A stretch of 43,772 bases of DNA, from positions 1-43,772 of the forward strand of contig JAMWBU010000014.1 in assembly GCA_023819255.1 (NCBI GenBank), given 5' to 3'. The position numbers and the translations under genes are program-made. Shown here one piece after another: positions 33,984 to 43,157 of this stretch. Source of the stretch: Candidatus Omnitrophota bacterium. GTDB taxonomy: Bacteria; Ratteibacteria; UBA8468; B48-G9; DTJG01. How positions within the stretch are numbered: position 1 is the first letter of the stretch; every line of letters begins with the position of its first letter. The notes beneath the pieces were generated by a model. The model did not search any database, was not told the DNA's origin, and was given only the letters and a program-made list of their open reading frames with translations.

Positions 33984-34400
33984 TTGACTTTGAAACTCTC
34001 AGCAAATCATAAGAGGGCAGTTTCGACAACCCTGACAATGCTTGATGAATTGTTTGTTTTCATTGAAAAATGGGTTGATGGACAATGTTATGCTTCAGTA
34101 CTTTACGAGGAAAAAAATGATCTGAGCCCTTCGCAAAAAAAAACCCTGAAAAAAGAACTTCTGAAATTTCGGCAATACCTCAATGATTTAAAGAATGATA
34201 TGAAAATCGAAAAACAAACACAATCGGCAATCAATGATATATGGAGCCGTGTAAGTGTGTTCAGAGAAAACATAATGGAACTTGAAGCAAGGCATATGAA
34301 AAGATACGGACATATTCCACAGGAGGTTCAGGAATATTTTAATGATATGTCAAAAAAACTTCTTTCCCAGCTCGATAGAATTCTTGAAATAATAAAGTGA
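33984..34400 (+). CDS. Hypothetical all-helical protein (138 aa)
   Basis: The protein is almost wholly alpha-helical and charged, with a start TLTMLDELFVFIEKWVDGQ, heptad-like segments at about 50-75 and 115-138, and no cysteines near each other beyond one at about 40. It starts with TTG at 33984, 12 nt after enolase, with GAGGT upstream. It could bind a partner as a four-helix bundle. No family was recognised. Confidence 0.65.
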   Translation: MTLKLSANHKRAVSTTLTMLDELFVFIEKWVDGQCYASVLYEEKNDLSPSQKKTLKKELLKFRQYLNDLKNDMKIEKQTQSAINDIWSRVSVFRENIMELEARHMKRYGHIPQEVQEYFNDMSKKLLSQLDRILEIIK

Positions 34401-34452
34401 AATAGCTGAGAATTTGTTTTGAGTCTTTTCTTCATTTTATCTTTATAAGTCA

Positions 34453-36528
34453 TCAGAAATTACAATAGCCTTTAGAACAACCCGCAAAATTTTCTCCAAA
34501 CTGGAGCCAATCAATCTCATCGCTGAAATCTTCGCCAAGATAAAGAACCTGCGCAGTTTTACTACCATAACGAAAAACCGTGATTCCTTTGCACTTCAAT
34601 CCATAGGCTGAAGTAAAAATTTTCTTTACATCATTGATGGTTGCCTGTTCAGGCAGGTTTATTGTTTTTGAGACCGCATTGTCTGTGTGTTTTTGAAACG
34701 ATGCTTGCATTAGAAGGTGAAACTCGGGTTTGATTTCAAAAGCAATTCTGAAGGCCTTTTTGATTTTTTCAGGCAACCCTTTGATATTTTGCACAGAACC
34801 GCTTTTGACAATTTCTGCAATGATTTCGCTATCTTTTAGCTTGAGTTCTGACAATTTCTTTTCCCATACGGGATTTATTTCAAAGATGGAACTTCCAGCC
34901 ATTTTTCTGCCATAAGCAATCGCAAAAAATGGTTCTATTCCACTTGAACAACCGGCGATAATGCTGATAGTACCTGTAGGAGCAATTGTTGTTCTTGTGC
35001 AGTTTCTCAAGGCCTTTACATTGTTTCTATAAATGCTTTTTTTGAAATTTGGAAAACTACCCTTTTTTTCTCCGAGTTGCGCAGAATATTCAAAAGCGGT
35101 CCTGTTGATAAATTCCATAATTGTTTCAGCAAGTTCCAAACTTTTTTTGCTTCCATAAGGAATCTCAAGCTCTGCAAGAAGGTCTGCCCATCCCATTATA
35201 CCAAGCCCGATCTTTCTGTTTCCCAGTGTCATTTTTTCAATCTCAGGTAGAAAATATCGATTAACATCAATAACATTATCAAGAAACCTGACCGAAAGCT
35301 TTACGATTTCTTCAAGTTTATTCCAGTTAATCCTTTTTCCATCCAGGACTTTTGTCAGGTTAATTGAACCTAAATTGCAGGATTCATAATTAAGAAGTGG
35401 CTGCTCGCCGCAGGGATTTGTAGCTTCAATGGAACCGAGCTCTGGGGTGGGATTTTTTCTATTTATTTCGTCAATAAAGACAAGCCCCGGGTCTCCTGTT
35501 TCCCATGCTGCCTGGCAGATGATGTCAAATAATTCTCTTGCCGGAATTATTCTGATGGCTTTCTTTGTTCGTGGATTTATCAGTTCAAAGTCCCTGTTTT
35601 TTTTAACGCTTTCCATAAACAGGTCAGTTACCGCGACAGAGATATTGAAATTTGAAAGCTTATTATTCCTTTTTGATGTTACGAAGTCAATGATGTCAGG
35701 GTGGTCCACCCTCATTATTCCCATATTGGCGCCCCTTCTTTTTCCACCCTGCTTCACAATATCTGTTGCCTTATCAAAAATTTCAATAAAGGATACAGGT
35801 CCAGACGCGACCCCCATTGTTGAACGAACAAGGTCTCCTTTAGGTCTGATATTTGAAAAAGAAAATCCTGTTCCTCCACCGCTTTGATGAATAATTGCCA
35901 TATTTTTCAGTGCCTCAAAAATTCCTTCTATTGAATCAACAACAGGAAGCACAAAGCACGCTGAAAGCTGTCCAAGGGCCGTTTTAGCATTCATAAGTGT
36001 GGGCGAATTCGGGAGAAATTCGAGATTAGAAAGCATTGCATAGAATTCTTCGTGGTATTTGTTCCTCTCAGATAAAGTTTTTTCCGCGTCGGCGATATGT
36101 TTTGCCACCCTTTCAAACATTTGCTGCGGAGCTTCAGTAATCTTTCCTGTTTCGTCCCTTAAAAGGTATCTCTTCTTTAGAATGCCGATGGCATTGAGTG
36201 AAAGTTTTAACCTGTCTTCAACGCCTATGATTTTTTTGCTTTCTCTCAATTGTTTTCTCTTTTCTCTATAAAGGATGTATGACCTGGCGACATCTGGAAG
36301 GTTGTTCTTCATCAATATTTCTTCAACGACATCCTGAATATGCTCCACAGATGGACAGGTGTTTTTTTCTTTTTCAAGAAATTTAACCACCTGGTTGCAA
36401 AGTTTCTTCGCAAGGACAGGGGTATCTTTTTTATTTGCTTTGAGACATTTCTGGATAGCGTCAGATATCTTCTGCTTCGAGAATTCTTGAATCTTTCCGT
36501 CTCTTTTTTTTACATACAGGACTTTCAT
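34453..36528 (-). CDS. nrdJ: Class II (adenosylcobalamin-dependent) ribonucleoside-diphosphate reductase
   Basis: The 691-residue protein starts with an ATP-cone (about 1-95: VLYVKKRDGKIQEFSKQKI), the allosteric activity site. The barrel has SACFVLPVVDSIEGIF with the thiyl pair Cys, HQSGGGTGFSFSNIRP, TNPCGEQPLLNYESCNLGSINL with the catalytic Cys/Glu, and APTGTISIIAGCSSGIEP. It is smaller than many NrdJ proteins. It ends in a redox pair, GCSKGYC, instead of a longer zinc-ribbon tail. It makes deoxyribonucleotides with B12 and works with or without oxygen. It lies 46 nt after glmS in the same direction, so the two may share a transcript. Confidence 0.93.
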   Translation of the reverse strand: MKVLYVKKRDGKIQEFSKQKISDAIQKCLKANKKDTPVLAKKLCNQVVKFLEKEKNTCPSVEHIQDVVEEILMKNNLPDVARSYILYREKRKQLRESKKIIGVEDRLKLSLNAIGILKKRYLLRDETGKITEAPQQMFERVAKHIADAEKTLSERNKYHEEFYAMLSNLEFLPNSPTLMNAKTALGQLSACFVLPVVDSIEGIFEALKNMAIIHQSGGGTGFSFSNIRPKGDLVRSTMGVASGPVSFIEIFDKATDIVKQGGKRRGANMGIMRVDHPDIIDFVTSKRNNKLSNFNISVAVTDLFMESVKKNRDFELINPRTKKAIRIIPARELFDIICQAAWETGDPGLVFIDEINRKNPTPELGSIEATNPCGEQPLLNYESCNLGSINLTKVLDGKRINWNKLEEIVKLSVRFLDNVIDVNRYFLPEIEKMTLGNRKIGLGIMGWADLLAELEIPYGSKKSLELAETIMEFINRTAFEYSAQLGEKKGSFPNFKKSIYRNNVKALRNCTRTTIAPTGTISIIAGCSSGIEPFFAIAYGRKMAGSSIFEINPVWEKKLSELKLKDSEIIAEIVKSGSVQNIKGLPEKIKKAFRIAFEIKPEFHLLMQASFQKHTDNAVSKTINLPEQATINDVKKIFTSAYGLKCKGITVFRYGSKTAQVLYLGEDFSDEIDWLQFGENFAGCSKGYCNF

Positions 36529-36574
36529 AGGATTCTGATTTCATTTTACTACAGATGGGGAAAAAATAAAATCT

Positions 36575-38350
36575 TTATTCAACGGTGACTGTTTTTGCAA
36601 GATTTCTTGGTCTATCAACAGGGAGGCCCTTTTTTAATGCGAGAAAATAGGATAAAAGCTGAAAAGGGATAATTGAAGAAACCGGAGATAGGCTTGAAAG
36701 AAAAGGAACATAAATAACATTTTCTGCGATCCTTGTTATTTTCTCACAACTTTTATTAGTAATCACGATCGTTCTTCCGCCCCTGCTTCTTGTTTCTTCT
36801 ATGTTATTCAATATCTTTTCAAATGTCTTATCTTCAGGCGCAATAAAAAATACAGGAGTATTTTCAGAAATAAGCGCTAAGGGACCATGCTTCATTTCAG
36901 AAGCGCAAAGGCCCTCAGCGTGGACATACGCAACTTCTTTGAGTTTTAAAGCCGCTTCCAACGCCACGGGATAACTGATTCCCCTTCCGAGGATAAAAAA
37001 ATCATTCGAATCAACTAAGGTTTTTGCGAGATTTTCTATCGATAAATTTTGCTGAAGAAACTTTTCAACAAAGCAAGAATAGCGGATAATATCTACAAAG
37101 ATTTTATTCATTTCAGAAAAAGAAATCAGGTTTTTATCTACAGCAATTTTCAAACTTAAAATGTAGAGACATAAGATTTGCGCAATAAATGTTTTTGTGG
37201 CGGCGACACTTAATTCAGGACCCGCTCCCATAAAAATATTGTAAGGAGTTAAACGAGTCAATAAGGATCCTTCAACATTTGTAATCACAAGGGTTTTTGT
37301 TCTAATTTTCTCCACCGCAGCAATTGTATCTCTGGTTTCTCCTGACTGTGATAGGGCAATAATTAACGTATTTTTTTTAATGATACCCGGATGATGAACC
37401 AGCTGGGAAGGATATTCCACCCTTGCGTCCATTTCTGAAATTGTTTCAAGATAATATTTCCCAATGAGTGCTGCATGACAAGAACTTCCACAGCCGGTCA
37501 GAACAATTTTCTCCACACCACTGAAAAATTTTTTTTCTGATTCAAAAAAAGAAAGAGTATTTCTGATGGTCGATAACATCGTGGAAGGCTGCTGCAGGAT
37601 TTCTTTCAGGTAGAAATGTTGTGCTGTGATCCTTACTCCCCTTCGAAGGTAGAATGCTTCTGGCGTTCTTTCTTTGCCATTCATATCGAAAAGACATAAT
37701 TCATTAGTAGAAACAATACCCCATTCTTCGTCATTTATCTGAATTGCTGTTGATGCATCCGGTGGAAGACCAATTGCGTCTGATGCAAGATATGCCTCGG
37801 TTTCAGATTTATAAATGACAAGGTTCATGTGCGTTCTCGCAAAATAGATTTTTTCTTCACCGGCGAAAACTGTAGCAATCGCAAAACTTCCTTTCAATTG
37901 CCTGATTGCTAAAAAAAACGCCTCTTTGTTATTTTTTCCCTGACGAAGATAAAATTCAATAAGATGAGGGATAACCTCTGTATCAGTTGAACTGAGAAAC
38001 TTATGAGATATCAGGTTTTTTTTAATTTCACGAAAATTTTCTATAATTCCATTGTGTACAACGGCAATGCGTTTATTGCAATCGAGATGAGGATGCGCGT
38101 TTTCAATGCAAACCTTTCCGTGTGTTGCCCATCTGGTGTGGCCTATTGCGGTTTTTGCATCAATATTTTGCTGATCTAACTTTTCTTCGAGTTTGGATAT
38201 CTTGCCTGTCGCTTTTACAACATTTAATCTTTTTGCGTTTACAAAGGCGACGCCGCAGGAATCATACCCGCGATGTTCAAGATTTCTCAGTATTTCAATG
38301 AGAATTGGACTTGCCTTTTTTCTTCCTGAATATCCAGCGATTCCGCACAT
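36575..38350 (-). CDS. glmS: Glutamine--fructose-6-phosphate aminotransferase (isomerizing)
   Basis: The 591-residue protein begins CGIAGYSG after Met, giving the N-terminal nucleophile Cys. It has the glutaminase motifs HTRWATHGK and STDTEVIPHL. Two SIS domains follow, with TGCGSSCHAALIG, SQSGETRDT and the C-terminal DRPRNLAKTVTVE, whose lysine binds fructose-6-phosphate. It makes glucosamine-6-phosphate, the entry to UDP-GlcNAc. The leader is only 27 nt from the upstream zinc-ribbon gene and has no strong Shine-Dalgarno sequence. No glmS ribozyme was seen, and the short spacing leaves no room for one. Confidence 0.96.
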   Translation of the reverse strand: MCGIAGYSGRKKASPILIEILRNLEHRGYDSCGVAFVNAKRLNVVKATGKISKLEEKLDQQNIDAKTAIGHTRWATHGKVCIENAHPHLDCNKRIAVVHNGIIENFREIKKNLISHKFLSSTDTEVIPHLIEFYLRQGKNNKEAFFLAIRQLKGSFAIATVFAGEEKIYFARTHMNLVIYKSETEAYLASDAIGLPPDASTAIQINDEEWGIVSTNELCLFDMNGKERTPEAFYLRRGVRITAQHFYLKEILQQPSTMLSTIRNTLSFFESEKKFFSGVEKIVLTGCGSSCHAALIGKYYLETISEMDARVEYPSQLVHHPGIIKKNTLIIALSQSGETRDTIAAVEKIRTKTLVITNVEGSLLTRLTPYNIFMGAGPELSVAATKTFIAQILCLYILSLKIAVDKNLISFSEMNKIFVDIIRYSCFVEKFLQQNLSIENLAKTLVDSNDFFILGRGISYPVALEAALKLKEVAYVHAEGLCASEMKHGPLALISENTPVFFIAPEDKTFEKILNNIEETRSRGGRTIVITNKSCEKITRIAENVIYVPFLSSLSPVSSIIPFQLLSYFLALKKGLPVDRPRNLAKTVTVE

Positions 38351-38377
38351 TTTGCAGGTGAAAAAAATTATGGTGTC

Positions 38378-38536
38378 TTATGTTTTGCGTTTTTTCTTTT
38401 TTTCTCGAGGATTGTTTTTATTGAAAGCAGCAGCGCCACACTTTCTGCAAAGAAAAGAGTCATCTTCAGGGAAAAATCCGTAGATTTCGTTTATTGCAAA
38501 ATCTTTCCCACAAAAACAACATTTGATTTTTTGCAT
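38378..38536 (-). CDS. Small zinc-ribbon protein (52 aa)
   Basis: A 52-codon gene encodes two metal-binding knuckles, CCFCG near the start (C6, C7, C9) and CRKCG (C30, C33). Between them lies an acidic patch (FFPEDDSF), and the protein ends in a very basic tail (REKKKKRK). GGGGG/AAAGG lies just before the ATG. It fits in the gap between the DeoR-like gene (10 nt) and glmS (27 nt), which supports a real gene. The basic tail suggests nucleic-acid or ribosome binding; the function is not known. Confidence 0.7.
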   Translation of the reverse strand: MQKIKCCFCGKDFAINEIYGFFPEDDSFLCRKCGAAAFNKNNPREKKKKRKT

Positions 38537-38546
38537 ATTTCCCCCT

Positions 38547-39188
38547 TTACAGAATTTTTGTTTCTATGCCCATTTGTTGTAGTTTCAAAATGTTTTGTTC
38601 AAACGCCTGCTGGTCTTCTTGAACCCTTGTCGTGAGCAAAAGATACTTTTTTCTTTTTTTTATATCAATTCGAACCATTCTTGCTGATCTTGTGATATAG
38701 GTGTCGGTTTTACCGATCTTGGAGCCATCAGCGACAATAATTATTTCCTTTGTTCTTTTTATTAAACTGTCCACCTGGTGCTGTGTTGAGATATTGTCTG
38801 CACTCAGCCCTTTGCTGCTGATTGCGGGCGAGCTGATAATAACCCTTTCTATCTCCGGCATCGGAAGGGTGAGGTTTATGATGGACATATTCTTACTGGA
38901 AAATTCGCCCGCCACAATTCCAACAAAATTGAAAGTAAAAAATTTCTCGTGCTTTGCAAGCCATGTGTTGATAAGTCCAATATTATTTGTCCATATCTTC
39001 AGCGAATAGTTCAGACAATGTCGTGCGATTTCCTCGCCAATATACGAAACTGTTGTGCCTGCTCCAAGAAAAATTGTTTCCCCCGGTGTGATAAGATGTT
39101 TTGCCGCATAGGCCGCGAGCTTCAATTTTTCTTCTTTATTCAAGGTCTTTCTGTATTCAAAGGAAGAGAGAATAATTTTTTCTTTCAT
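38547..39188 (-). CDS. DeoR-type sugar-phosphate sensor domain protein without HTH
   Basis: From the ATG at 39188 (AGGAG box, good spacing) the protein has 213 residues. It aligns with the C-terminal DeoRC sensor domain: NKEEKLKLAAYAAKHLI, then IFLGAGTTVSYIGEEIA, NNIGL, SSKGLSADNIS and IIVADGSKIGK. These are the phosphosugar-binding and oligomerisation signatures. The 50- to 60-residue N-terminal winged helix found in DeoR regulators is missing; the 17 extra codons upstream are not an HTH and lie in the promoter. It may work as a sensor with a separate DNA-binding partner or be an enzyme of the same fold. It heads the glmS-nrdJ unit. Confidence 0.8.
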   Translation of the reverse strand: MKEKIILSSFEYRKTLNKEEKLKLAAYAAKHLITPGETIFLGAGTTVSYIGEEIARHCLNYSLKIWTNNIGLINTWLAKHEKFFTFNFVGIVAGEFSSKNMSIINLTLPMPEIERVIISSPAISSKGLSADNISTQHQVDSLIKRTKEIIIVADGSKIGKTDTYITRSARMVRIDIKKRKKYLLLTTRVQEDQQAFEQNILKLQQMGIETKIL

Positions 39189-39207
39189 AAGCGCTCCTGA
39201 CATTTTA

Positions 39208-39236
39208 TTAAACATTTTGACGGTAAAAATGTTTAA
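39208..39236. promoter_or_regulatory. 29-bp palindromic operator over the DeoR-like/glmS promoter
   Basis: Eleven-base arms TTAAACATTTT (39208-39218) and AAAATGTTTAA (39226-39236) are perfect inverted repeats around a 7-nt spacer, GACGGTA. The site covers the -10 element of the minus-strand promoter, as expected for a repressor. DeoR-family sites often contain TGTTTA-like half sites; the binding protein is not identified. Confidence 0.75.
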
Positions 39237-39258
39237 CATATTTCCAAAAATTTGTCAA
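39230..39258 (-). promoter_or_regulatory. Promoter of the DeoR-like/zinc-ribbon/glmS/nrdJ unit
   Basis: On the minus strand TTGACA (39258-39253) is followed after 17 bp by TAAACA (39235-39230). The -10 lies inside the palindrome. Confidence 0.6.
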
Positions 39259-39353
39259 GTTTGCCTGTCAATTTTTTCCCTGGGGGAGCCAAAAATCAAT
39301 TTGCCAATTTGATTGTCTCATGATAGATTAAATAAGAAAATAAAAGGAGATAT

Positions 39354-40655
39354 ATGGAAAATCTGGCTAAAAAGATTCAAAACAGGACGGCAATAGTGGG
39401 GGTTATCGGATTGGGTTATGTGGGCCTTCCTCTTGCTCTGCGATTCGCAAAGAAAAGGTTTAAGGTCATTGGCTTTGATGTGGATAAAGAAAAAGTTTCT
39501 CTTCTGAATAATGGGAAATCGTACATCTCTCATATAAAGGAAAATGAGATAAAAGAAGCGCTCAATTTTTTTCAAGCAACCTCAGAGATGAAACTTCTTT
39601 CACAACCTGATGCAATCGTTATCTGCGTTCCAACTCCACTTGATGCTCATAACCAGCCCGACCTGACATATATCAAGAATACTGCTTCAGAAATTTCACG
39701 CCGTCTCAGGAAAGGACAATTGATTTCGCTTGAATCAACAACATATCCTGGAACAACAAGGGAAATTCTCGTACCTGAACTTGGAAAATCAGGATTGATG
39801 TCCGGAAAGGATTTTTTTGTTGTTTTTTCGCCTGAAAGGGAAGACCCTGGAAATAAAAATTTTACGGCTGAAAGAGTTCCGAAAATTGTTGGAGGATTAA
39901 CAAACAACTGCCTTAATCTCGGCAGTTTGCTTTATGGCACCATTTTTGAAAAGGTTGTTCCTGTTTCAAGTGTTGAGATAGCAGAATCAGCAAAACTTCT
40001 TGAAAACATCTATCGCAGCGTCAACATTGCTCTTGTTAATGAGCTTAAGGTTCTTTTTGACAGGATGGGAATCAATATCTGGGAGGTTATTGAAGCGGCA
40101 AAAACCAAACCATTCGGATTTCAGGCGTTTTACCCGGGTCCTGGTCTTGGGGGTCATTGCATTCCAATTGATCCTTTTTATCTTACCTGGAAGGCGAGAG
40201 AATATGATTTTCATACAAGGTTTATTGAGCTTGCTGGAGAGATTAATAGTTCTATGCCCTATTATGTTGTAGAAAAACTTATTGATGCTCTTAATGCTCG
40301 TGGCAAGGCCCTTCAAAGAAGCAAAGTTCTTATTATAGGGGTCGCTTATAAAAAGGATATCGACGATGCAAGGGAATCTCCTGGAATAAGGATTATGAAA
40401 ATTCTTGAAGAAAAAAATGTCAGAAAGGTTGACTATTATGATCCTTATATTCCTGAACTTGTCAGATGCAGGCAGATATGTCATCCAATTTTTTCAATAA
40501 AATTCAGCAGATCTACAATTTCAAAGTACGATGCCGTAATCATAGTTACAGACCATTCCTGCATTGATTATAAACTTCTCCTTTCAACCAGCCATCTAAT
40601 CATTGACACAAGAAATGTATACAAAAGAAAGTATAAAAATGTTGTTAAAGCGTAA
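39354..40655 (+). CDS. UDP-sugar 6-dehydrogenase (WbpA/UDP-GlcNAc dehydrogenase-like)
   Basis: The 433-residue protein has the UDP-glucose/GDP-mannose dehydrogenase layout. The N-terminal Rossmann motif is GVIGLGYVGLPLALRF, followed by ESTTYPGTT and SPEREDPGN. GPGLGGHCIPIDPFYL contains the catalytic Cys, and the C-terminal UDP-binding domain has AYKKDIDDARESPG. The PGN and GGHCIPIDPFYL details favour the UDP-N-acetylglucosamine/UDP-N-acetylgalactosamine dehydrogenases (WbpA, WbpO) over Ugd. The product, a uronic acid, would feed envelope polysaccharide. AAGGAG precedes the ATG. It diverges from the operator region that controls glmS, the source of its likely substrate. Confidence 0.9.
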   Translation: MENLAKKIQNRTAIVGVIGLGYVGLPLALRFAKKRFKVIGFDVDKEKVSLLNNGKSYISHIKENEIKEALNFFQATSEMKLLSQPDAIVICVPTPLDAHNQPDLTYIKNTASEISRRLRKGQLISLESTTYPGTTREILVPELGKSGLMSGKDFFVVFSPEREDPGNKNFTAERVPKIVGGLTNNCLNLGSLLYGTIFEKVVPVSSVEIAESAKLLENIYRSVNIALVNELKVLFDRMGINIWEVIEAAKTKPFGFQAFYPGPGLGGHCIPIDPFYLTWKAREYDFHTRFIELAGEINSSMPYYVVEKLIDALNARGKALQRSKVLIIGVAYKKDIDDARESPGIRIMKILEEKNVRKVDYYDPYIPELVRCRQICHPIFSIKFSRSTISKYDAVIIVTDHSCIDYKLLLSTSHLIIDTRNVYKRKYKNVVKA

Positions 40656-40667
40656 AAAGGGGTAAAA

Positions 40668-43157
40668 ATGAAAAAGCTTGTGTGCCTGGTTATGGTGGTT
40701 GCAGTTTTTCTCACAAGTTCTATTCGTGCAGCCGAAAGGTTTCAGATTGCAAAGGCAGGACAGTCTCTTACAGACATTGTGATATCAGAAAGTGCCACAG
40801 AAAGGACAAAGCAGGCTGCCCAGGACCTTGCTGATTATCTTGGAAAAATCGCAAACTGCAAGTTTAAAGTTATCACAGGCGATGGCAAAAAGGGAATAGC
40901 AGTAGGAAGATTTGAAGATTTTCCGCTTCTCGGAATGAAAGAAAAGCCGGATCCAAAGGATATGAAAAAGCGAGAGCTATATGTATTAAGGTCTCATAAG
41001 AATGGAATTTATGTAATTGGTGCGACAGATACAGCGGTTGAGGATGGAGTGTGGGATTTTCTTTATTTACTTGGGTACAGGCAATTTTTTCCACCAGAAA
41101 AATGGGAATATGTACCAAAACAGCAAGACCTTTCTATTACCATAGATAAAGTCGAACTTCCTGATTATTACGCGAGAAGAATATGGTATGGTTATGGTTC
41201 CTGGCCTGAGAACAACAAACTTTACAATCTGTGGTGCAAGAAGAATCGAGCAGTCGTAAGCATAGCTTTAAACACAGGTCATGCCTATGATCACATCATT
41301 TCAAGAAACAAGGCGGAATTTGATAAACATCCTGAATATCTTGGCCTTGTCGGCGGTGAAAGAAAATCATCGAAGTTTTGCATATCAAATCCAGGACTTA
41401 GAAAGCTTGTTGTTGATTACGCAATAAGAACATTTGAGCAGAATCCTGAACTTGACTCAATCTCGATGGATCCAAGTGATGGCGGTGGCTGGTGTGAGTG
41501 TGAAGAGTGCGCAAAAATGGGCAGTATTTCAGACAGGGCATTAACGCTGGCAAATGAAGTTGCAGAAGCGATATCAAAGAAGTTTGGAGATAAATATGTA
41601 GGAATGTATGCATATAATTTCCATTCACCGCCACCAAACATCAGAGTTCATCCAAATGTCATTATCAGTGTCGCAACAGCTTTTATCAAAGGAGGTTATA
41701 CTGTTGAACAGTTAATGGATGGCTGGGCAAAAAAAGGTGCGAAAATAGGAATTCGTGAATATTATGGCGTAAATGTGTGGGATAGAGATCTACCTGGTTC
41801 ACCAAAGGCGTCTGGCGCCAAATCGCTTGCAAAGAGTATTGCGGATTTTCATTCAAAAGGAGCCAGGTTCCTTTCTGCAGAATCAAGTGACAACTGGGGA
41901 CCTAATGGACTTGGTTATTATGTTGCGGCAAGAGTTTTATGGGATGTGGATGAAGCAAAAAAGGTTGATGAGTTAAAAAAGGACTTTTTTGAAAAGATGT
42001 TCGGTCCGGCAAAGGATAAGATGGAAGAATTTTACAACCTTATTGACAGGGATAATAAACCCCTGCTTACAGAGGATCTTATAGGAAGAATGTACAGAAC
42101 ACTTGCTGAGGCAAAGAAAAAGGCGCAGGATCCTTTGATTCAGTCAAGAATCAATGACCTTGTTCTATACACAAGATATGTTGAATTATTCAAAAGATAC
42201 TCAGCGCAATCAGGAGAAGCAAGACAGAAGGCTTTTGAAGATGTGATTAAATTTGCCTATCGTATCAAAGACACCTGTATGGTTCATTCGCTGGCGCTTT
42301 ACAGGGACCTGCCGGGTAGGGACAAAAGCGTAAATGTTCCTGATGATGCAAAATGGAATGTGCCGGAAGGAAAAAATCCCTGGAAGAGTAAAGAGCCATT
42401 TTCAGAAGAAGAAATCAAAAAAATCATTGAAGACGGAATTGCGGGAAACAAACTTGTTGACTTCAAGCCGCTTTCTTTCAGTATGAAACTTGTTCCTTCA
42501 TCAAGGCTTACTAATGCTGTGGATAAACCACAGGACAATCCAATTTTCAGCACGAGAGGGAAAAACCTTTATTACATCTGGATAGAGAAAGAACCAGCAG
42601 AAATAAAACTTAAGGTGACAGGAGGACTGATTTACAACGACAGGGGAGATGTTAGTATACTTCTTTATCCGGCTGAACAGGAGTTTTCAACCTTTATTGA
42701 TAGTGCCAGTGTTAAACCTGACAAACAGGAATATCTTATAACGCTGAAAACAAAATACCAGGGTTTGCACTGGATTGAAGTATCTGATAGAATGGCAGGA
42801 ACAAAGGTTGAATTTTTAGATAAAACACCGTTGACAATTTTTACTTCTCTTGATCAGCAGCCACATTTTACGGGTCGATGGAATTTTGTTTTCTATGTGC
42901 CAAAAGGGACAAAGCTTATTGGCGGGTATGCAACAGGACTGGGCGCGGTTTTGAATTCATCCGGGAAAAAGGTATATTCCTTTCCTGGAACTCAAACATA
43001 TTTCAGCATCCCTGTTGAGCAAGGAGAAGATGGTAAGATATGGAAGATTGAGCAGGCTACTGGAGCCTGTGTTCTTATGACAGTTCCATCCTGTTTTGCA
43101 AGAAACCCGTGGGAACTGATGCTACCAGAAGAAATTGTTGTAAAAGATTCAAAATAA
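40668..43157 (+). CDS. Secreted DUF4838-domain protein (intact)
   Basis: The 829-residue protein has a signal peptide (about 1-22, ending IRAAE). An N-terminal alpha-glucuronidase-like/GH20-like domain (about 25-140) contains ATERTKQAAQDLADYLGKI. The DUF4838 core (about 150-460) has SMDPSDGGGWCECEECAKMG, with a metal- or disulfide-like Cys cluster, and conserved His in ALNTGHAYDH. A helical region to about 600 is followed by a C-terminal beta-sandwich. It is a likely glycosidase or polysaccharide-binding protein of the cell surface. It starts 12 nt after the UDP-sugar dehydrogenase with GGGG in the spacer. Its paralogue at 86-1911 is more GC-rich and truncated. Confidence 0.85.
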   Translation: MKKLVCLVMVVAVFLTSSIRAAERFQIAKAGQSLTDIVISESATERTKQAAQDLADYLGKIANCKFKVITGDGKKGIAVGRFEDFPLLGMKEKPDPKDMKKRELYVLRSHKNGIYVIGATDTAVEDGVWDFLYLLGYRQFFPPEKWEYVPKQQDLSITIDKVELPDYYARRIWYGYGSWPENNKLYNLWCKKNRAVVSIALNTGHAYDHIISRNKAEFDKHPEYLGLVGGERKSSKFCISNPGLRKLVVDYAIRTFEQNPELDSISMDPSDGGGWCECEECAKMGSISDRALTLANEVAEAISKKFGDKYVGMYAYNFHSPPPNIRVHPNVIISVATAFIKGGYTVEQLMDGWAKKGAKIGIREYYGVNVWDRDLPGSPKASGAKSLAKSIADFHSKGARFLSAESSDNWGPNGLGYYVAARVLWDVDEAKKVDELKKDFFEKMFGPAKDKMEEFYNLIDRDNKPLLTEDLIGRMYRTLAEAKKKAQDPLIQSRINDLVLYTRYVELFKRYSAQSGEARQKAFEDVIKFAYRIKDTCMVHSLALYRDLPGRDKSVNVPDDAKWNVPEGKNPWKSKEPFSEEEIKKIIEDGIAGNKLVDFKPLSFSMKLVPSSRLTNAVDKPQDNPIFSTRGKNLYYIWIEKEPAEIKLKVTGGLIYNDRGDVSILLYPAEQEFSTFIDSASVKPDKQEYLITLKTKYQGLHWIEVSDRMAGTKVEFLDKTPLTIFTSLDQQPHFTGRWNFVFYVPKGTKLIGGYATGLGAVLNSSGKKVYSFPGTQTYFSIPVEQGEDGKIWKIEQATGACVLMTVPSCFARNPWELMLPEEIVVKDSK

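Follow-up and report, generated by a model that had tools for sequence, protein, structure and literature searches.

A DeoR-type sensor domain without its HTH precedes glmS in an uncultured bacterial order and may serve in a feedback circuit

The DeoR family is known for sensor domains that form one half of a repressor, the other half being an HTH, and most of these repressors control sugar breakdown. The stretch of DNA analyzed here, which we call the window, comprises 43,772 nucleotides of a contig from a Candidatus Omnitrophota bacterium (JAMWBU010000014.1) and carries such a sensor domain on its own, in a gene upstream of glmS. This arrangement raises the question of what a DeoR sensor might do once separated from its DNA-binding half. 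A sequence-only reading of the window had suggested a feedback circuit with a split regulator, in which a small basic zinc-ribbon protein encoded next to the sensor would supply DNA binding. Our comparisons with related genomes suggest that the sensor is probably part of a feedback switch that controls the synthesis of cell-wall sugars, and argue against the zinc-ribbon protein as its partner.

The sensor gene, deoRC (38547..39188, minus strand), begins with an ATG at 39188 that is preceded by the Shine-Dalgarno sequence AGGAG (39194..39198, minus strand), and its product is 213 amino acids long. A Pfam search with this protein finds the DeoRC domain alone and no HTH (PF00455; residues 17-166, 63.6 bits against a cut-off of 31.8, E 2.8e-17). 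Another 14 genomes of the order contain close relatives, with a contig-end fragment in the case of G025, and those relatives that carry a name in public databases are MAGs under the labels Omnitrophota, Ratteibacteria or Vermiphilus. The 14 complete sequences, the window's included, start at one alignment column with the same methionine, and the other 13 are 46-86% identical to the window's protein. In contrast, all 10 aligned full-length DeoR paralogs from the phylum, drawn from a sample of 35 genomes only, have an HTH at the front, and relative to these some 55-60 residues are gone. Because the 14 members share their start while the 10 paralogs keep the HTH, its loss is, as judged from these alignments, ancestral and uniform. 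The gene therefore encodes a genuine HTH-less DeoR sensor domain, as had been claimed, and is neither an annotation error nor a MAG accident. The HTH-less clade has also acquired features of its own. It carries LGAGTT where the full-length paralogs have LD[S/T]GTT, a segment inserted around residues 83-90, and a basic segment at residues 160-183 (38640..38711, minus strand; ...TRSARMVRIDIKKRKKY...) that has no counterpart in the paralogs and reaches a local net charge of +4.7 per 15 columns. The mean net charge of the HTH-less proteins is +9.1, compared with +5.2 for the sensor halves of the paralogs (Mann-Whitney p 0.002, with relatedness ignored).

The predicted structure agrees with the family assignment. 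An AF2 model built with 24 homologues (pLDDT 85.6) has as its top Foldseek match the sensor C-domain of E. coli DeoR (7l6l, E 6e-10, TM 0.81 by target), which leads by a wide margin over the RpiA enzymes that come next, with TM about 0.45. An earlier model from a shallow alignment (pLDDT 72.5) had given RpiA as the nearest fold, and it was replaced by the deeper one. The codons at 38718..38729 (minus strand) specify D154 to K157, of which D154 and K157 are invariant in 24/24 homologues. In a register taken from the NCBIfam UlaR alignment these two residues match Asp206/Lys209 of UlaR and Asp210/Lys213 of LacR, which bind phosphosugar effectors (PMC10991401). By residue equivalence, then, the phosphosugar-binding Asp/Lys pair typical of the DeoR/GlpR family is present. 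Repressors of that family, for example E. coli DeoR, UlaR, LacR and AgaR, share with DeoRC a C-terminal ISOCOT-fold sensor, a GTT loop and the D-x-x-K effector residues, but DeoRC differs from them in the missing N-terminal HTH, in the altered LGAGTT and in its family-specific inserts. They are also linked to catabolism, whereas DeoRC is linked to biosynthesis, by way of glmS and GNA1-like genes.

In the window, deoRC, the zinc-ribbon gene, glmS (glucosamine-6-phosphate synthase; 36575..38350, TIGR01135 631 bits, cut-off 418) and nrdJ (B12-dependent ribonucleotide reductase; 34453..36528, TIGR02504 705 bits, cut-off 400) form a run on the minus strand in which neighbors are about 10, 27 and 46 bp apart. 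Fourteen loci are informative, in that the contig includes DNA downstream of deoRC, and glmS follows the sensor gene in 12 of them, the exceptions being G016 and G024. Across 28 genomes of the order, 12 have both deoRC and glmS, two have glmS alone, three have deoRC alone and 11 have neither (Fisher p 0.002, with relatedness ignored); the five single-gene genomes include three that are cut by contig ends (G002, G027 and G012). Conservation of the linkage between sensor and glmS across genera and families is thus supported, and the position of the sensor ahead of glmS stands as first described. The same check of gene order was less kind to the neighbors, since nrdJ and a divergent dehydrogenase are linked within the window's genus (g1) only. 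The nrdJ gene does follow glmS on the same strand here, but its inclusion in the unit extends no further than the window's genome (G000) and that of G003. In G024 and G016 the locus consists of an intact sensor gene and a GNAT gene without glmS (L008:2771-4452, L044:6347-7455).

What the sensor might detect is suggested by its companions. The gene beside deoRC alternates between the zinc-ribbon gene (genera g1, g2 and g5) and a GNA1-like GNAT gene (g3, g6 and g7), and both are never found at one locus. The GNAT gene occurs in seven genomes, in 7/7 of them at the deoRC/glmS locus, and the best PDB matches of its product include several GlcN6P N-acetyltransferases. It is present in single copy (L043:7482-7925, L013:8568-9017 and L012:5312-5758, with equivalents in G016, G024, G012 and G027). 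Among 18 genomes searched for GlmU, the best matches are limited to the N-terminal half of the model, and the closest homologues, which were inspected in G000, G001, G016 and G024 (L132 at G000:C64:37790-38534, and L129, L130 and L131), stop after the uridylyltransferase domain and lack the acetyltransferase domain. An apparent in-frame TGA in these homologues is a normal stop. No enzyme for the acetylation step was identified in the window's genus, in which the best GlmU match is likewise confined to the N-terminal half. Because a GNA1-like gene replaces the zinc-ribbon gene in three genera, and because GlmU is matched over its N-terminal half only, an amino-sugar phosphate is the signal most naturally indicated.

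The promoter of deoRC was said to have its -10 inside a perfect 11-bp-armed palindrome, and this description holds. The palindrome, TTAAACATTTTgACgGTaAAAATGTTTAA, spans 29 bp (39208..39236), and 13/14 positions pair when its center is counted. A -35 TTGACA (39253..39258, minus strand) is separated by 17 bp from a -10 TAAACA with an extended TGn (39230..39235, minus strand), the latter lying in the left arm. TAAACA matches TATAAT at 3/6 positions and the promoter is not listed by a consensus scanner, but both hexamers are invariant in the four species of g1, among which identity is 35% upstream of the -35, 100% in the hexamers, 83-86% in the palindrome arms and 56% in the leader. The palindrome itself is kept in two sister species (13 of 14 pairs in G003 and 11 in G001) and has decayed in a third (7 in G004). 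An inverted repeat with 11-bp arms arises in 13/3000 Markov shuffles of the 165-bp intergenic region, and 0.02 29-bp palindromes with at most one mismatch are expected by chance per window. A search for the palindrome elsewhere in the 2.02-Mb genome returned the one exact copy at deoRC. The arm pattern with up to 3 mismatches is likewise expected 0.02 times by chance, and its sole other match has 3 mismatches and is a single sequence that appears twice, where two contig ends overlap. These ends (G000:C2:37225-37378 and G000:C19:1-154) share 154 bp that are 98.7% identical and hold an imperfect operator-like palindrome, and the shared stretch looks like a repeat or an assembly overlap. Transcription is predicted to start near 39223, close to the palindrome center, and the transcript would then contain just the right arm, which makes a site in the DNA more likely than an RNA hairpin. 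No Rfam match to a riboswitch or glmS ribozyme was found over 34000-41000.

Outside g1, G008 and the other genera have a different but equally marked promoter, TTGACAAATTGTAAAACATTTTGTAAAAT, whose -10 stands 7 nt ahead of the ATG. This short distance, seen in the upstream regions L019-L028, implies a leaderless mRNA, and deoRC is therefore apparently transcribed without a leader in these genera. Their upstream regions are 31-36% identical far from the gene and 66-75% identical over positions -40 to -1, and the spacer between -35 and -10 holds an inverted repeat, ACAAATTGTaaaACAATTTGT, whose 9-bp arms are perfect in G008 and degenerate elsewhere. Copies of the element with 0-1 mismatch occur at deoRC only. 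G016, whose locus lacks glmS, retains the hexamers but has a drifted spacer. A regulator of the DeoR/GlpR family has an operator at the promoter that it controls, and the conserved inverted repeats that overlap the deoRC promoter in both groups are candidates for such a site. The cis-element of g1 differs from that in the rest of the order, however, so that one and the same conserved protein need not recognize both.

If these sites are operators, a complete DeoR regulator encoded elsewhere might bind them, which would have spoken against a circuit built on the HTH-less sensor. None was found in the window's genome, which is 93% complete and has one DeoRC domain in total. The lone weak HTH_DeoR match is a 358-aa protein that we read, from its sequence, as a GntR-type HTH joined to a LacI-like sensor. 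Nor does any transcription factor gene consistently adjoin deoRC across the neighborhoods compared.

The reading that we tentatively favor, and to which we give somewhat less than an even chance, is that deoRC encodes an autoregulated amino-sugar-phosphate sensor in a GlcN6P feedback circuit that acts at its own promoter. An order-specific protein derived from DeoR would have lost its HTH and gained family-specific inserts, one of them basic, to become the first gene product of an autoregulated operon supplying glucosamine-6-phosphate. This operon would take the form deoRC-znr-glmS in some genera, whereas in others deoRC would be joined by the GNA1-like gene and, in most cases, by glmS. The sensor would take up an amino-sugar phosphate, GlcN6P or GlcNAc6P, in its conserved DeoR pocket and tune the access of RNA polymerase to its own promoter, where the inverted repeat overlaps the -35/-10 region, most simply through repression by steric block. 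Its contact with DNA might be made by an HTH partner encoded elsewhere, or by the sensor's own basic segment. This reading starts from features that were observed or predicted: the HTH is gone, the predicted fold is that of a DeoR sensor, the pocket residues are conserved, the genes are linked, and a conserved inverted repeat that occurs once in the genome overlaps the core promoter. The feedback circuit first proposed is thus upheld with respect to the sensor-glmS linkage and a palindrome that is conserved and promoter-specific, but we infer its effector and its DNA-binding component. Against the circuit are the two genomes with deoRC and the GNA1-like gene but no glmS, the reduced pairing of the G004 palindrome, the difference in cis-element between g1 and the other genera, and the fact that the neighborhoods compared revealed neither a DNA-binding component nor a consistently adjacent transcription factor gene.

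The DNA-binding component had been sought in the zinc-ribbon protein (38378..38536, minus strand), a 52-aa CxxC-x20-CxxC zinc finger of treble-clef-like type. Its gene adjoins deoRC in 10/10 of the genomes that have it, and the protein is basic in g1 and g2, as a partner on DNA might be. Clear orthologues are restricted to g1, g2 and g5, however, and the protein is acidic in g5 (pI 5.0-5.5). The gene was not found in the genomes of g3, g6 and g7, which keep the sensor and, in the case of g3 and g6, also the promoter element; a marginal match in G024 (E 0.001) lies on a contig other than that of deoRC. The protein has only weak treble-clef-type matches (ClpX-C4, LIM, DUF2175 and DUF4428) and none to a specific DNA-binding family. 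With this distribution, and with its acidic form in g5, it makes a very improbable DNA-binding half. A somewhat better candidate, still a long shot, is the sensor itself, which could contact the promoter through the basic segment TRSxRMxxIDxKxxKKY in replacement of the lost HTH. If true, this would be a new DNA-binding mode, in a one-domain regulator of amino-sugar synthesis derived from DeoR.

Alternatively, the sensor may act on no DNA at all. The strongest rival, unlikely but serious, holds that it works post-translationally, binding GlmS (or the GNA1-like enzyme) and setting the activity of that enzyme in response to an amino-sugar ligand, and that an unrelated, unlinked regulator binds the inverted repeat. 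Such a sensor is co-encoded with its would-be target, needs neither a DNA-binding domain nor a DNA step, and fits the absence of a consistently linked transcription factor. There is also a precedent in the direct control of GlmS by GlmR in Bacillus, which is antagonized by UDP-GlcNAc (PMC7525490). But G016 and G024 keep deoRC without glmS, and the sensor's own promoter is the one place in the genome where the inverted repeat occurs, which is what autoregulation predicts. Were the protein instead a small RpiA/NagB-superfamily enzyme acting on an amino-sugar phosphate, this would fit the co-encoded GlcN6P enzymes and an unusually conserved pocket, and its fold is common to RpiA and glucosamine-6-phosphate deaminase; with DeoR repressors as nearest structure and family, RpiA far behind and the D-x-x-K motif retained, we consider an enzyme improbable. 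The lost HTH might suggest that a full DeoR regulator is decaying here and that the sensor is what remains of it, but this is hardly credible in view of more than 50 invariant residues and intact frames in 14 genomes, the conserved promoter and the family-specific additions. Conservation might also reflect no more than the needs of RNA polymerase at the promoter of an important gene, but this leaves the conserved spacer unexplained.

Our search of the open-access literature found no paper on an HTH-less or stand-alone DeoRC near glmS, and besides the DeoR/GlpR repressors two known systems come close to the proposed autoregulated sensor. GlmR (YvcK) of Bacillus subtilis, as is proposed for DeoRC, responds to a sugar compound and acts on the supply of GlcN6P, but it binds UDP-GlcNAc and acts directly on the enzyme (PMC7525490), and we claim no sequence relation to DeoRC. 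The eukaryotic GNA1-type route to UDP-GlcNAc resembles the loci of g3, g6 and g7 in its GNA1-like acetyltransferase, usually found there with glmS; unlike that route, the bacterial locus is headed by an HTH-less sensor, and its acetyltransferase activity is predicted. A conserved HTH-less DeoRC tied to GlcN6P synthesis and to a promoter element suggests a different control of cell-wall sugar supply, and offers, in an uncultured order, a specific example, open to testing, of a sensor domain that is no longer joined to its DNA-binding half.

On the other side of the promoter, a nucleotide-sugar dehydrogenase gene (39354..40655, plus strand; TIGR03026 412 bits) is divergent from deoRC, as the sequence-only reading had stated, but the UDP-amino-sugar type assigned to it there is tentative, and models of UDP-ManNAc dehydrogenase score below cut-off. 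A search for a link to defence at the locus gave no PADLOC match. Downstream of the dehydrogenase, positions 40668-43157 encode an 829-aa DUF4838 protein that is kept within the genus (G001 and G004).
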